Below, one piece after another: positions 1 to 5,761 of a DNA stretch of 64,000 nt. Below the pieces are notes generated by a model that saw only the letters and a program-made list of their open reading frames with translations, ran no database searches and was not told where the DNA came from. The position numbers were made by a program, and so were the translations under genes. Source of the DNA: Myxococcus sp. (GTDB taxonomy: Bacteria; Myxococcota; Myxococcia; Myxococcales; Myxococcaceae); contig JACSRE010000162.1 of the NCBI GenBank assembly GCA_014879945.1, positions 1-64,000 of the forward strand, read 5' to 3'. How positions within the stretch are numbered: position 1 is the first letter of the stretch; each line of letters opens with the position of its first letter.

Positions 1-944
1 TCACGACCTTCATGCCGGCCTGCTTCCACTTCTCGAGCGCCTCGGTGGCGATGCGGGGGAAGTCGAGGTGCGCGGGCAGCGGATCGATGGGCGGCGCGGG
101 CACCGGGCTCATCGCGTCCTCGAGGATCCAGATCTTCTGGGCGAGCTTCGGGTCTGACTGCATGACGTGCGCCTGAATGTCGTTCAGCGTCGAGAGCACG
201 CAGTGGCTCTTGGCCTGGCCGAAGACGTAGACGCGGTCGTACTCCATCAGCATCTTGAAGAAGGGCGTGTTGAACGAGCCGACCACCTGGCCGCCGAGCT
301 CGGTCACCTCGGGCGACAGCACCGAGTAGTTCTCGGTCATCGCGTGGGTGCCCTTGGTCTCGAAGTGCGTCTGGTGGCGGCGCGCGGCGGCGTGGAAGAG
401 CGAGGCCTCCATCATCGAGGGCACCAGGGCGTGCGAGAGGCCGCCGAGCAGGGTGTGGTACGGCCACACCGTCAGCACGTACTTGCCGCTGGCCTCGAGC
501 CGCTTGACGTACTCGAGCGACTCCTTCGGGTGGGCGACCGCCGTCCATCTTCCGGCGCGCACCTCTTCGTGGAAGATCGGCGTCAGCGGCGCCGGGTGCT
601 TGCCCTTCGCGTCGACCCACCACGCGGGGTGGAAGATCTGGAACATGCGGTGGGTGTCCATCGAGAAGAAGAGCGAGGTCACCTTGTCGAGGTTCCGGTA
701 GAGCCACTCGACGGTGCGCTGGGTGTCCTCGACGGCGCCGGGCACGAAGAGCGACGCCCCCGGGGTGCAGAAGCCGACCTGCACGTCGATGCCGAACGCC
801 GCCACGCGGAACTTGTCGGCCCCTGACGGCTTGATGCCGTGCTTCTGAGCCCACGCCTCACCCGCGTCGGCCACCAGCCCGGCGCGCTCGAGGAACAGCT
901 GGGGGACCTGCTTCGGCTCGTAGAAATCGGGCAACGGCAACATG
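1..944 (-). CDS. nicotinamidase/isochorismatase-like cysteine hydrolase (3' end outside window)
   Basis: At least 314 residues are visible and there is no stop before the window edge. The isochorismatase-fold landmarks are present: Asp53 in FGIDVQVGFC, a D-x-H pair in the SMDTHRMF segment followed by a further His in IFHPAWW (the usual metal ligands of nicotinamidases), and a nucleophile Cys near residue 247 in GQAKSHCVL. Family members hydrolyse nicotinamide to nicotinate, or related amides. The N-terminus is about 45 residues longer than in a minimal PncA. The ATG is preceded by GGAGGAG. It is the fourth gene of an operon headed by pncB, so nicotinamidase activity feeding PncB with nicotinate is a reasonable inference. 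Another amide substrate cannot be excluded. Confidence 0.8.
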
Positions 945-970
945 GGCTCCTCCTTCTTCGGGGACGGCGT

Positions 971-2749
971 TCACGACAACGACAGCTGAACCAACTCCTT
1001 CGAGGTGACGACGACGAGGCTGCCGTCAGACTGCGGGAGCAGCTCGTCTTGCGCGCTGACGAAGGGCTGGGTGTCGGCGAAGCAGGCGGCTTCGACCAGC
1101 ACGCCCGAGTCGAGCTTCAGCGCCACCAGCCCGTCGTCGGAGCCGATGACGACCCGGCCGCCCAGCAACGCCGCGTGCCCCGCTCGTCCGCCCTCACTCC
1201 GCGCCAGCAGCGCGCCGTCTTCCGCCAGCAGCCATCGGTGCACGACGTCTCTCCCGTCGAGCTCGGCCACCACCGTGAGCAGCGCGTGGCGGGCGTCGAA
1301 CACCGCGTCGGCAGCGACCACCCTGCCCCTCCACCGCACGTCGGCGAGCTGCTTGAGCCCCGCGCGCCCCGCCCGGAGGAGGAACGCCACCGTCACGGCG
1401 CCGGCCCGGTAGAAGCCCAGGCCCAGCCGCTCGCCCGTCCACAGCCAGGTCTGGCCCTCGAGCACCTGGCCGACCCGCATGCCGGTGCCCTGCTCGATGA
1501 GCCACTCGTGCTCGACGCGGTAGCTGACCGACGCGGCCGAGGCGAAGGTGGGCTCGGCGCCGCGCACGCCCGTCTGCGCCCGCTCCACCAACCGTCCGTG
1601 CTCGTGCCGCGTCATCTCGCCGCGCGCGGTGACGACCCACGTCGACGCGCCGGCGAGGCCCAGGCGCTCTTGAGGCAACAACGGCCGCTCCAACACCAGC
1701 GCGCCGTCTTCGCGACGCACCACGCCGTCAGCTTCGAAGACGTACTTCACGCCGCCCTGCATCGACGCAGCGAGCACCCGGCCCCGCGTCTCGAAGAGCA
1801 CCTTCGCGGTGCACCGCCCCTTCACCCGCACCGCAGGCTTCGTCGCCAGAGGACCGAGCGCGTGACACAAGGGGCACACGGTGCGCGCGTGCGCCGCTCC
1901 ACACCGGCAGGTGGACCAGGCCTGCTCGAGCAGCGATGGCGCAGGCGCCTGGCGAGCGTCGTGTTCGAAGGTCTGCGAGAACCAGTGCAGCGCCTCGTCA
2001 GACAACGTCTTCCACGACGTCGCCACACGCGGGAGCACGACGTCGTCCTTCAACACGGGGTGCCGGGCCTCGGCACGCCGGAGCATGGTGTTCAGCTTCG
2101 GGTGCGTGCCGCCGAAGGGGTGCACGTAGAGCAGCGACGAGAACCACATGATCGCGAAGGCGTACCAGTCGGAGCCTTCGTCGAAGCGCGGCGCGGTGGA
2201 GAGATCGACGCCGTACAGCCGTGGATCGAGGAAGCGCTCGTGGCCGACCGCGCAAGGCAGCCCAGAGAACTGCATCGAGTCTGCGTCGATGAGGAAGCTC
2301 TGCTTCGTCGCCGGGCGCACCAGCACGTTGCCGTCGTTCAAGTCGCCCACGATGACCTGCCGGGCGTGCAGCGCTGTCACCGTCTGGGCGAGATCTCGAA
2401 ACAACGTCATCACCAGGTCGTTCGAGACGCGCTGCTCCCTGAACTTGCGCTGGGCGAGGCGGCTCGCGTCGTCGACGTCCACCAGGGCCTTCATCACGAA
2501 GCCGACGACGTCGCCGCGCCCGTCCTTCGCGAGCTCCACCGGGCCCAGCACCGCGTCAGGCAGCCCCGCCGGAAACCGGGTGAGCTTCTCGAGCTTGCTG
2601 GCGCGCACCCGCGCTTCGGCGGCCGCGGTGACGGGGTGGAAGAGCTTCACCGCCCGGTCCTTCCAGCGAAAGACGCGCGCCTCGCCGCCTTCGCCGAGCA
2701 GGTCGCTGTCCTTCAGGCGCACGCGCGTGTTGGCGATGTAGACGTCCAT
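971..2749 (-). CDS. atypical protein kinase with zinc ribbon and C-terminal beta-propeller-like region (YegI-like)
   Basis: 592 residues. A glycine loop GEGGEARVF (19-27) and Lys35 in AVKLF mark the kinase N-lobe. The catalytic loop reads VGDLNDGNVL instead of HRDxxxxN, and the DFG equivalent is IDAD, so the Asp and Asn needed for catalysis and Mg binding remain although the His is lost. A CxC...CxxC zinc-ribbon pair follows near residues 290-305. The remaining 280 residues look like repeating beta strands, possibly a propeller used as a sensor. The divergent kinase with zinc ribbon beside a PP2C gene resembles E. coli YegI/YegK and the TerY-P triads (recalled, not searched). It starts 3 bp after the PP2C stop, so the two are probably co-translated. 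Confidence 0.82.
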   Translation of the reverse strand: MDVYIANTRVRLKDSDLLGEGGEARVFRWKDRAVKLFHPVTAAAEARVRASKLEKLTRFPAGLPDAVLGPVELAKDGRGDVVGFVMKALVDVDDASRLAQRKFREQRVSNDLVMTLFRDLAQTVTALHARQVIVGDLNDGNVLVRPATKQSFLIDADSMQFSGLPCAVGHERFLDPRLYGVDLSTAPRFDEGSDWYAFAIMWFSSLLYVHPFGGTHPKLNTMLRRAEARHPVLKDDVVLPRVATSWKTLSDEALHWFSQTFEHDARQAPAPSLLEQAWSTCRCGAAHARTVCPLCHALGPLATKPAVRVKGRCTAKVLFETRGRVLAASMQGGVKYVFEADGVVRREDGALVLERPLLPQERLGLAGASTWVVTARGEMTRHEHGRLVERAQTGVRGAEPTFASAASVSYRVEHEWLIEQGTGMRVGQVLEGQTWLWTGERLGLGFYRAGAVTVAFLLRAGRAGLKQLADVRWRGRVVAADAVFDARHALLTVVAELDGRDVVHRWLLAEDGALLARSEGGRAGHAALLGGRVVIGSDDGLVALKLDSGVLVEAACFADTQPFVSAQDELLPQSDGSLVVVTSKELVQLSLS

Positions 2750-2752
2750 GGG

Positions 2753-3469
2753 TCAGCGCTCCGAGACGTCGAGGGCCGCGAGGGTGGTGTCGTCGGTGAA
2801 GCGCTCCACCTCGTTGAGCACGTTGAGGCGCCGCTGCAGGTGCGCGGGGTTGGTCCACGCCAGCGGGTCATCGAGGAGCGTCGCGAGCGCGGTGGGCGTG
2901 CGGGTGAGCCAGCCGTCGACGCCGTCGGTCGCCAGCGCGACCCGCCGCGCGGGGCCGAGGTGGTGCACCTTTGGAGCGACGGGCGCCCCCCGCAACCGAT
3001 AGCCGAGGTAGGCCGGCGCGTTGTCGGCGCCCGAGTCGAGCCTGGTGAGGACGCCGTCGACGAAGACCGCGCCGTCGCCCGAGCCGAACACCACGCACTC
3101 ACCGCCGCGCTGCGCCGCGCACAGCACCGTGAAGAGGCCGTACTGCTCCAGCACGGCCGTGGCGTCGTCCACCTCGACCGCGCGCACCCACCGCGCGAGC
3201 CAGGCGCTCAGGTGGTCGCAGGCGACCTGCGGCAGGTCCTCGAGCGAAACGTGCACCAGCGCCGCGGTCATCACCGCCATCGCGCGCGCGCCCAGCCGCG
3301 CGCCCACCTCCGAGAACGGCTGGCTCGAGCAGCCGTCGGTCACCACCGCCACCGTGGTGTCACCGCGCGAGGTGACGAACACGCCGTCCTGGTTGTTGCG
3401 GCCGAGGCGGACGTGCTCGCGACCGATGAGCGACGCGGTGCACGAGGAGGGGCGGTGAGGGAGACTCAT
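2753..3469 (-). CDS. PP2C-family Ser/Thr protein phosphatase (YegK-like)
   Basis: 238 residues, a compact PP2C without extra domains. The metal-binding motifs are visible: GRNNQDG near residue 24, VVTDGCSS near 42, ALATDGVDG near 180, and the terminal FTDDTTLAAL. These are the Asp positions that hold the two Mn/Mg ions of PPM phosphatases. The ATG overlaps the pncB stop as ATGA, and the next gene is a divergent kinase. The pair is therefore probably an opposing phosphatase and kinase acting on the same substrate. No secretion signal is seen, so it should be cytoplasmic. Confidence 0.85.
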   Translation of the reverse strand: MSLPHRPSSCTASLIGREHVRLGRNNQDGVFVTSRGDTTVAVVTDGCSSQPFSEVGARLGARAMAVMTAALVHVSLEDLPQVACDHLSAWLARWVRAVEVDDATAVLEQYGLFTVLCAAQRGGECVVFGSGDGAVFVDGVLTRLDSGADNAPAYLGYRLRGAPVAPKVHHLGPARRVALATDGVDGWLTRTPTALATLLDDPLAWTNPAHLQRRLNVLNEVERFTDDTTLAALDVSER

Positions 3470-4905
3470 GCAAAGGCCTCTTTCGTGAGCCGGGTGATGA
3501 GCGCCTGCGTCTGCGGAGAGTGGACGAGGCGGAGGTCTTCGGCGCGCGCCGACCTCGCTTCGTCCAGGGCGGGCGAGGCAGCAGGAGGGGCGCCGGTGAG
3601 CAGCGCGTAGCCCTCGGCCACGGCCTCACCTTCCTGCGCGACGACGCCGAATGGGCCGCTGGCCCCCGCGCGACGCCGCCACAGCACCGGCCTTCCGGGA
3701 ACGCTCTGCTTGCCGCTGCCCGCTTCGTTCCCGAACTTCATGCACGGGCGCTTGCCCGTCTGCGTCAGCTTGTAGACGGCCGCGACGCGATCTCGGGTCA
3801 GCGGCGTGCCCGAGGGCTGCGCGACGATGAAGCCCCCGTAGCCGTACACCTGCTCCTCGGGCTTCCACCCGGCCTCGACCCGCAGCGCCTCGAAGCGCCT
3901 GGTGAGCTCGGTGTCGAAGCCGTCCTCGAGGATCTGCACGGGGCGAAGGCCCAGCTCGACCGCGAGCTTCGTGGCGAAGCGGTACTGGGCCTCTTTGTCA
4001 CCCGAGTCGTAGCGAATGGAGTCGCCGCGGCCCTGGCGCTCCTTGATGATGGCGTACGCCGCGGGGATGCCGCTCTTGATGGTGTCGAAGGTGTCGAGGA
4101 GGAAGCTGGAGCGGTTGGCCCGGCGCTCCACCATGGCCCGGAAGGCCGCGTCGTCGGAGCCGAAGCGCTGCACGTGCTCGTGCCCCATGGTGCCCACGGG
4201 AATGAGCCCCTTCTCGCGCGCGCCGTAGACGTTGCTGGTGCGGGTGAGGCCGGCCGCCTTGCAGCCGTCGAGCGCGAGCAGGTGTTGCTCGACACAGGTG
4301 GCCGCGCGCAGCCCGACCTCGAAGAGCCGCTCGGCGCTGCCCGTCACCTCGGCGAGCTCCTTCACCCGGGCGGTGACGCGCGCCACGTAGCCCTCGGAGT
4401 CCACCGTGATGGGAGGCGCCTTCACGCCCACCGCGTCGAGCGTCTCGAGCACGATGCGGCGCTGCGCCTCACAGGTGACGGTGGCCACCGACGCCGCGAG
4501 CTCGGCCGGGCGCAGCAGCGCCACCGTCGCCACCTGGATGCGGTAGCTCCACATCAGCACCAGCGGCTCGAGCCACGAGACGACGGCCGAGGGGCCGGTG
4601 ATGGAGAAGATCGGCTCGCGGTCGTGGAAGACGGCGTTGCGCGGCAGCGCGTCGATGCGCACCTGCTGGGCCCTTTCGATCGCCGCCTTGAACCCCGCGC
4701 TCATCTCGTAGTCGTGCTTCGCCAGGAACTCCCAGTCGCCCGGCTGCGGCACCGGCAACACCTCGCGCACCGCCTTCTCGACGTCGAAGGGCAGCACCTG
4801 CAGCCCGCCCCTGCGGTGCGAGGCGTAGAACGTCTCTTCGCGCAGCGGCCAGCCGGCCTCCGCCATCGAGAACTTGTACCCGTCCGTCAGCAGCAACCCA
4901 GCCAT
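3466..4905 (-). CDS. pncB: nicotinate phosphoribosyltransferase
   Basis: 479 residues. The enzyme makes nicotinate mononucleotide from nicotinate and PRPP in the Preiss-Handler NAD salvage pathway. Recognisable elements are LLTDGYKFSM at the N-terminus, GTMGHEHV near 210, LDTFDTIKSG, IRYDSGDK (the conserved Arg-Asp-Ser-Gly-Asp), GYGGFI and the KLTQTGKRPCMKFG phosphate-binding stretch. I chose the ATG at 4905 because GCGAGGTGAGG lies just upstream and the family N-terminus begins here; an in-frame ATG at 4953 would fall in the promoter. It is the first gene of an operon with a phosphatase, a kinase and a nicotinamidase-like hydrolase. Confidence 0.92.
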   Translation of the reverse strand: MAGLLLTDGYKFSMAEAGWPLREETFYASHRRGGLQVLPFDVEKAVREVLPVPQPGDWEFLAKHDYEMSAGFKAAIERAQQVRIDALPRNAVFHDREPIFSITGPSAVVSWLEPLVLMWSYRIQVATVALLRPAELAASVATVTCEAQRRIVLETLDAVGVKAPPITVDSEGYVARVTARVKELAEVTGSAERLFEVGLRAATCVEQHLLALDGCKAAGLTRTSNVYGAREKGLIPVGTMGHEHVQRFGSDDAAFRAMVERRANRSSFLLDTFDTIKSGIPAAYAIIKERQGRGDSIRYDSGDKEAQYRFATKLAVELGLRPVQILEDGFDTELTRRFEALRVEAGWKPEEQVYGYGGFIVAQPSGTPLTRDRVAAVYKLTQTGKRPCMKFGNEAGSGKQSVPGRPVLWRRRAGASGPFGVVAQEGEAVAEGYALLTGAPPAASPALDEARSARAEDLRLVHSPQTQALITRLTKEAFA

Positions 4906-4924
4906 GGCCTCACCTCGCAAGAGA

Positions 4925-4953
4925 GTTATAGACACCGCACAAAGAGTCGTCAA
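4925..4953 (-). promoter_or_regulatory. sigma-70-type promoter of the pncB operon
   Basis: Reading the minus strand, TTGACG (4953-4948) is followed after exactly 17 bp by TATAAC (4930-4925). The likely start of transcription is near 4918, giving a leader of about 13 nt before the pncB ATG. This is the best consensus-like promoter in the window. The rest of the 358-bp gap to the sigma-factor gene (4954-5183) is relatively AT-rich but shows no ORF or hairpin that I trust. Confidence 0.65.
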
Positions 4954-5183
4954 GACCTCATGTCGCCCGAATCCTCGAATTCGAAAGTCGTCCCTTGTTC
5001 CGGCGTCTTACGGTGTCGCTTTTCGTCCTGCACACTGGCGCGATCGGTCCGAGACACATGAATTAGCAATGATTTATCGAACATAAGAATTGGCAACGCC
5101 CGCAACATAGCCGTCAAGCACCTGAACTCACTTCTGTTCTCGAAATACTGTCAAGCATCGTGACCTGACTGGAGCCCCTCGTC

Positions 5184-5263: not shown

Positions 5264-5761
5264 ATGAAGAAGAACCTGAGCATCGAAGCGCTGTACGCCA
5301 AGTACGGGCCGACCATCTACGCACGCTGCCGTCGCCTGCTGAAGGACCCCGTGGCGGCGGAGGACGCGACCCAGGACATCTTCGTGAAGCTGATGCGCCA
5401 CATCGAAGCGGCGCCGACGGAAGACGCGGTGCTGCCGTGGATTCACCGCATCGTCACCAACCACTGCCTCAACGTCATTCGCGACACCAAGCGCCGCGCC
5501 GCGCCGGTCGAAGAGCTGCCCGAGCAGGTGGACGACGAGTTCGAGGACAGCGTGGTGACGAAGAACTTCGCGCAGAAGGTGCTCGAGTCGGCGCCCGAGG
5601 CGATCAAGGCCCCCGCGATGCTGTACCACGGCCGGGGCATGGAGCAGGCGAAGGTGGCCGAGACGCTGGGCTGCTCGCGCCGCACCGTGCTGTACCGCCT
5701 CTCGGAGTTCACCCGCCGCGCCATGAAGATGCACGCCGCGGCCGAAGCCGGGCTCCCCTGA
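5264..5761 (+). CDS. ECF-family RNA polymerase sigma factor
   Basis: 165 residues with both sigma domains. Region 2 carries AAEDATQDIFVKLMRH (about 29-45) and region 4 is a helix-turn-helix in AKVAETLGCSRRTVLYRLSEF near the C-terminus, with a variable acidic linker between them. The ATG has GGGGAGAA eight bases upstream. No anti-sigma factor is adjacent: the next gene encodes a small exported protein and the upstream gene is divergent, so activity control is unknown. A motif shared with two protease-like genes sits in its promoter region. A perfect terminator follows, so it is a single-gene transcript. Confidence 0.9.
   Translation: MKKNLSIEALYAKYGPTIYARCRRLLKDPVAAEDATQDIFVKLMRHIEAAPTEDAVLPWIHRIVTNHCLNVIRDTKRRAAPVEELPEQVDDEFEDSVVTKNFAQKVLESAPEAIKAPAMLYHGRGMEQAKVAETLGCSRRTVLYRLSEFTRRAMKMHAAAEAGLP

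Follow-up and report, generated by a model that had tools for sequence, protein, structure and literature searches.

A predicted NAD-salvage operon of Myxococcus sp. with a proposed TerY-P/YegIKL-type phospho-switch under probable NrtR control

The locus and its continuation beyond the contig end

The window, i.e., the whole stretch of 64,000 nucleotides of Myxococcus sp. DNA that was analysed, opens with four neighbouring genes on the minus strand (Table 1), and re-reading of the open reading frames from the sequence confirmed that these are real, as the original prediction had them. The ATGA overlap of pncB with the PP2C phosphatase gene at 3466-3469 and the 3-bp spacing between the phosphatase and kinase genes were likewise found as described, and the TTGACG-17-TATAAC promoter is present at the place assigned to it and has aligned promoters in relatives. 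Two details required correction: the spacing between the kinase gene and that of the hydrolase (hereafter HYD), given as 26 bp, measured 27 bp, and position 4953, which had been taken for the start of pncB, falls on the TTG with which the -35 box opens, whereas the ATG at 4905 agrees with the pncB starts of the relatives.

Table 1. Coordinates of the genes and other features at the locus, in window positions.
Feature	Position	Strand	Remarks
pncB-like nicotinate phosphoribosyltransferase	3466..4905	-	479 aa; start ATG at 4905
PP2C-type phosphatase	2753..3469	-	238 aa; PF13672 match
YegI-type protein kinase with zinc ribbon and C-terminal all-beta domain	971..2749	-	592 aa
Kinase zinc ribbon	1865..1909	-	residues 281-295, CxC-x8-CxxC
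Kinase C-terminal beta-strand domain	974..1837	-	secondary structure of AlphaFold model, ~28 strands
HYD, nicotinamidase-like cysteine hydrolase	1..943	-	incomplete, runs off contig at position 1
pncB promoter	4925..4953	-	-35 TTGACG 4948-4953, 17-bp spacer, -10 TATAAC 4925-4930
Putative NrtR-type operator TGAGGTC-TTGAC-GACTCTT	4942..4960	-	covers -35 box; right half intact, left degenerate

The HYD gene is incomplete, since the window begins at the first base of contig C438, one of the 448 contigs of this genome. It was here that the original prediction went astray, for it had the kinase and phosphatase partnered by NAD enzymes rather than by a VWA protein, and a VWA gene belongs to the set: the search for a TerY/VWA gene past position 1 found one directly after HYD wherever the contigs of relatives go on. 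The VWA protein of a same-genus relative matches PF00092 over the cut-off (E 4e-7), and the sole VWA homologue of the present genome (G000:C216:18906-19688) lies some 40 bases short of where its 19,729-bp contig stops. The gaps between HYD and the VWA gene in the closest relatives (28-73 bp) fit a junction at this point, from which we infer that position 1 of C438 almost certainly abuts the end of C216. Based on this homologue and on the order in relatives, the full operon would read pncB-PP2C-KIN-HYD-VWA (KIN, the kinase).

A kinase-phosphatase pair among predicted enzymes of NAD salvage

The likeness of the phosphatase and kinase to YegK and YegI, put forward in the original prediction, was borne out by hhalign against the E. 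coli proteins. The phosphatase aligned with PphC/YegK at 97%, it matches PF13672 (PP2C_2) at E 9e-16, and its residues D28, D45-G46, D182-G183 and D226-D227, which include the catalytic aspartates, are invariant in 11 relatives. The kinase matches the Pkinase profile weakly (E 3e-5), and its K35, D136, N141 and D155 are intact and invariant in the alignment of relatives; its AlphaFold model (pLDDT 88) has a kinase fold, and its match to YegI (E 1e-21) runs through the zinc ribbon, the four cysteines of which (C281, C283, C292 and C295) are invariant in 14 sequences. In the model, the ribbon is followed by about 28 beta strands (window 971-1837) for which YegI has no aligned counterpart. This modelled all-beta C-terminus would be compatible with a seven-bladed propeller; in a structure search with the whole kinase model, kinases filled the match list.

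A TerY-P triad consists of a TerY-like VWA protein, a PP2C phosphatase and a kinase with a zinc ribbon (PMC11090510), and all three proteins, including the C-terminal zinc ribbon of the kinase, are common to it and to the locus described here. The differences are that here a nicotinamidase-like enzyme is encoded between the kinase and the VWA protein, so that the three triad genes are not directly adjacent, that the kinase has a large additional all-beta C-terminal domain, and that the partners are NAD genes and NrtR. No ter genes or genes for DNA restriction or processing were recognised among the clustered neighbours, of which part were profile-scanned. The YegL-PphC(YegK)-YegI operon of E. 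coli likewise unites VWA, PP2C and kinase genes, but it has no NAD genes nearby, unlike the present locus, and YegL bears a weak similarity to the VWA protein found here. To our knowledge, the roles of triads of the YegI and TerY-P types are poorly understood, and their substrates mostly unknown.

That HYD is a nicotinamidase-like hydrolase was supported by its predicted structure and its active-site residues, but not by profiles, since no model in Pfam or NCBIfam matched it, even at E 1. The Asp-Lys-Cys catalytic triad (D53, K197 and C248) and the metal ligands of the Pnc1 type (D96, H98 and H163) are invariant in 40 relatives, and in the alignment with M. tuberculosis PncA the aspartate and cysteine of the triad line up, as does the WPxHC motif. 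The best match of the AlphaFold model of HYD (pLDDT 89.6) was yeast Pnc1 (3v8e; Z 21.2, rmsd 2.9, 208 residues aligned), the 16 best structure rows were all annotated nicotinamidases or their relatives, and most other cysteine hydrolases scored lower (Z 13 to 15.5). In PncA structures, the metal-ligand set of the bacterial enzyme includes an extra histidine, at the place of which HYD has Q102. Set against the PncA of bacterial PncA-PncB salvage, HYD belongs to a longer, divergent family of about 320-355 aa, and the HYD of the window, like most scanned relatives, falls below Pfam PF00857. Fold, residues and context thus point to a nicotinamidase-like enzyme, whose activity is a prediction. The canonical PF00857 protein of this genome (C234:50450) was considered for the same role and rejected, since by eye it has no WPxHC-like motif and resembles a general cysteine hydrolase, leaving HYD as the better candidate for the predicted nicotinamidase.

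By its sequence, PncB is a divergent nicotinate phosphoribosyltransferase (NAPRT). It matches NCBIfam TIGR01513 at E 1e-33, yet its 117 bits lie under the curated cut-off of 297, so the name given to it originally holds by similarity and not by the family threshold; it is also similar to the solved NAPRT 2f7f (E 6e-12), to which it aligns at the GTxxH and DSGD motifs. It is the only NAPRT found in this genome, and its gene heads the operon in 18/18 relatives of the pncB-first type. Preiss-Handler (PncA-PncB) salvage under NrtR resembles the locus here in its nicotinamidase-type and NAPRT-type enzymes, in the presence of NrtR and, going by the relatives, in a likely palindromic operator, of which the window has a degenerate copy; it differs in that a protein kinase and phosphatase lie inside the present operon.

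Recurrence of the gene order and its predicted repressor

The order of the genes is not unique to this genome, for it recurs in other myxobacteria and in several phyla, and the kinase-phosphatase pair of the relatives does not sit among unrelated neighbours, as NAD genes recur there as well. The kinase was found in 83 of the 147 genomes of the class, every one of which (83/83) also has HYD. As far as contigs allow, one arrangement, pncB-PP2C-KIN-HYD-VWA, is that of 18 fetched loci from 10 genera; the other, NrtR-PP2C-KIN-HYD-VWA, is that of 22 further fetched loci of the Myxococcaceae type, two of them fragments with no visible NrtR, and the genomes with this second arrangement hold a separate pncB-HYD2 pair, the HYD2 of which is closer to the HYD of the window. 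In Myxococcaceae there is one copy of the locus, and the genes on its flanks are conserved. Most pncB-first genomes keep, at the place where the window has it (5264-5761, plus strand), a sigma-factor-like gene that diverges from pncB, which argues that the pncB-first locus is chromosomally stable. One locus titled Comamonas sp. KCTC 72670 (L073) is myxobacterial, with 98% identity to a Myxococcus-type HYD, and is probably a mislabelled or contaminated record.

Beyond the family, a scan of named genomes found PP2C-KIN-HYD-VWA in Sorangium, Polyangium, Elusimicrobia, Acidobacteria, many Cyanobacteria and candidate-phyla bacteria. Phyla with this order therefore include Myxococcota, Cyanobacteriota, Elusimicrobiota and Acidobacteriota, besides members of candidate phyla. 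The recurrent NAD neighbours of the cassette are pncB, nadE (its product, PF02540, being among the neighbourhood genes), nadB, genes for ADP-ribosylglycohydrolase (ARG) and the gene of the NAD repressor NrtR; most copies of the cassette lie next to this repressor gene or under its predicted control. Where HYD occurs without the triad, it adjoins pncB, nadE or nadB in Acidobacteria and in Myxococcus-type genomes. In the HYD tree, such proteins make up 44 of 133 rows, which implies that HYD does not need the triad switch. Proteins linked to the triad are found in each of the two deep clades, and on well-supported branches there were at least five changes of this link, so the association has arisen, disappeared or been retained more than once and is not one frozen accident. 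The HYD of a MAG labelled Candidatus Gracilibacteria (L126) is nested in the cyanobacterial clade of this tree, and the MAG is likely misbinned. An NAD-kinase-like translation near loci L107 and L086 had no Pfam match and was not used.

Cyanobacterial loci have one or two ARG genes (PF03747, E 6.5e-39) between the PP2C and kinase genes, together with a divergent NrtR gene, and this position ties the cassette to ADP-ribose removal. The ARG genes were seen at L120:3197-3991 and at L113, L121, L123-L125, L127, L134, L142 and L149, and in the Pseudanabaena loci a conserved 198-aa protein with no Pfam match is encoded between the kinase and HYD (L123:5365-5961). ARG-centred systems with a Nudix regulator and a VWA chaperone are treated in section 3.8 of Iyer et al. 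2022 (PMC9503650), and the grouping of ARG, an NrtR-like regulator and a VWA protein is one that the cyanobacterial loci share. The phosphatases given there are of the rhodanese and other types, not PP2C, and that section does not name a kinase, a nicotinamidase or an NAPRT; conversely, there is no ARG gene in the operon studied here or in the other myxobacterial operons, such genes having been seen in the cyanobacterial relatives only.

The cyanobacterial intergenic regions between NrtR and PP2C contain the palindrome TAGTGT-N7-ACACTA, in several cases exactly between the -35 and -10 boxes. With up to 2 mismatches, it gave 155 matches over the fetched loci, compared to about 20 in shuffles, and within 350 bp upstream of PP2C it was present at 46 of 59 loci having both PP2C and kinase, as opposed to 17 of 2,315 control windows (0.7%). 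The sites are often in tandem, 22-28 bp apart, and some loci have them ahead of NrtR, HYD or pncB too. A related palindrome, up to TAGAGTC-TTGAC-GACTCTA, covers the -35 box of pncB in relatives of the window, and this GAGTC palindrome, at up to 2 mismatches, is unique genome-wide in four relatives with genomes of 7-13 Mb; the window copy has 3 mismatches and one good half-site. Among the Myxococcus-type pncB-HYD2 loci, the GAGTC palindrome was found at the pncB promoter of all three that have NrtR2 next to them (L173, L176 and L178) and at none of the four that do not (L172, L174, L175 and L177). The genome studied here has an NrtR2 at G000:C216:4369-4557, some 15 kb past the VWA gene; it contains a Nudix box, and its 48 bits lie over the cut-off. 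Such co-occurrence suggests that regulator and palindrome are paired, and the palindromes are put forward as predicted NrtR operators. According to the literature cited in PMC9503650, NrtR responds to ADP-ribose in other bacteria.

Predicted phospho-control of salvage and the copies in huge phages

Gene order, recurring NAD neighbours, the operator pattern, catalytic residues and the nicotinamidase fold, all of them seen in sequence or predicted structure, are the basis on which we interpret the locus as what it probably is, an NrtR-controlled NAD-salvage operon with a TerY-P/YegIKL-type phospho-switch built into it. As predicted from folds, residues and context, HYD would convert nicotinamide to nicotinate, and PncB would convert nicotinate to nicotinate mononucleotide for the synthesis of NAD. 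NrtR, a Nudix-type repressor, would bind and hold the promoter closed, letting go when NAD is consumed. The kinase, PP2C and VWA proteins would form a triad of the TerY-P/YegIKL type, in which phosphorylation may adjust a protein of this very route, HYD or PncB being the likeliest candidates and the VWA protein a possible scaffold, and salvage would thus be controlled both at transcription and after translation. The central idea of the original prediction, that a YegI/YegK-like pair is linked to NAD salvage, has gained strong support from a conserved order over several phyla, from NrtR with its likely operator, and from the fold of HYD. We found no description of the PP2C-kinase-nicotinamidase-VWA set in the openly licensed literature; triads and ARG-centred systems have already been described, and what would be added here is the incorporation of a triad like TerY-P or YegIKL into NAD salvage. 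In several phyla, the triad keeps company with a single defined pathway whose metabolite sensor is known, and this offers specific candidates for its substrates together with an output that can be measured (NAD level, salvage flux). Should the salvage enzymes be targets of the kinase, this would be a case of bacterial NAD synthesis controlled by protein phosphorylation.

An unlikely, but serious, alternative is that the triad is merely co-regulated with salvage, i.e., NrtR would switch the operon on upon consumption of NAD, the kinase and phosphatase would act on other proteins (e.g., ADP-ribosylated or stress proteins), and HYD and PncB would refill NAD. It is in keeping with the occurrence of TerY-P and YegIKL triads where there are no NAD enzymes, with the pairing of HYD and pncB in many genomes that have no triad beside them, and with the addition, in the cyanobacterial versions, of ADP-ribosylglycohydrolases, which act on modified proteins. 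However, HYD lies between the kinase and VWA genes in nearly all bacterial loci, and its link to the triad is seen in two deeply separated HYD clades, both of which suggest a direct partnership of HYD and the triad. That unrelated genes came to be adjacent by chance within one lineage has next to no probability, and was ruled out by the conservation of the order across several phyla and in huge phages; the operator pattern is shared as well.

A further alternative is a conflict module, for defence or counter-defence, in which the triad would respond to a loss of NAD or to ADP-ribosylation when a phage attacks, and NAD would be restored by HYD together with PncB or a related transferase. The PP2C-KIN-HYD-VWA set, whole or partial, was found on IMG/VR contigs of 42-436 kb, and a PF04095 phosphoribosyltransferase is also present on 7/9 of those with the cassette; terminase and tail-sheath profiles gave one weak match each, so that the viral status of these contigs rests on IMG/VR. 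Two published huge-phage genomes, LR756500 (462 kb) and LR745208 (485 kb), have relatives of HYD, VWA, PP2C and the kinase clustered in that order. These cassettes, and the known or proposed participation of TerY-P modules in anti-phage defence (PMC11090510), are the points in favour of such a conflict module. Against it, huge phages may have captured the cassette as metabolic genes, neither an effector nuclease nor a toxin was recognised, and the single copy and conserved flanks of the Myxococcaceae locus are not those of a variable island. Nor was there a strong match in PADLOC-DB 2.0.0, in which only weak general kinase and PP2C matches were obtained, the best being PD-T4-6 at 37 bits. We consider this alternative improbable, more so than simple co-regulation, and the suggestion of a stress or defence system in the original prediction did not find support for the bacterial copies in view of their stable chromosomal synteny and the PADLOC result. 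A role in conflict between phage and host over NAD is nevertheless kept alive by the presence of the cassette in huge phages.

Extended beyond this genome, the preferred reading of a phospho-switch built into salvage would become that of a widespread and hitherto undescribed signalling system. In it, NAD salvage, and in cyanobacteria also the removal of ADP-ribose, would be governed by the triad of kinase, phosphatase and VWA protein, with an NAD-sensing repressor above them, and huge phages would have taken the system over to control the NAD of the host during infection. We offer this wider view tentatively, as somewhat short of an even chance. The phage copies suggest that the control of NAD is contested between huge phages and their hosts.

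The cassette copies in viral and huge-phage loci are those of L189-L198, L199:4655-7756 and L200:3440-9786, and in L194 and L195 a nicotinate/nicotinamide phosphoribosyltransferase gene is located just upstream of the cassette.
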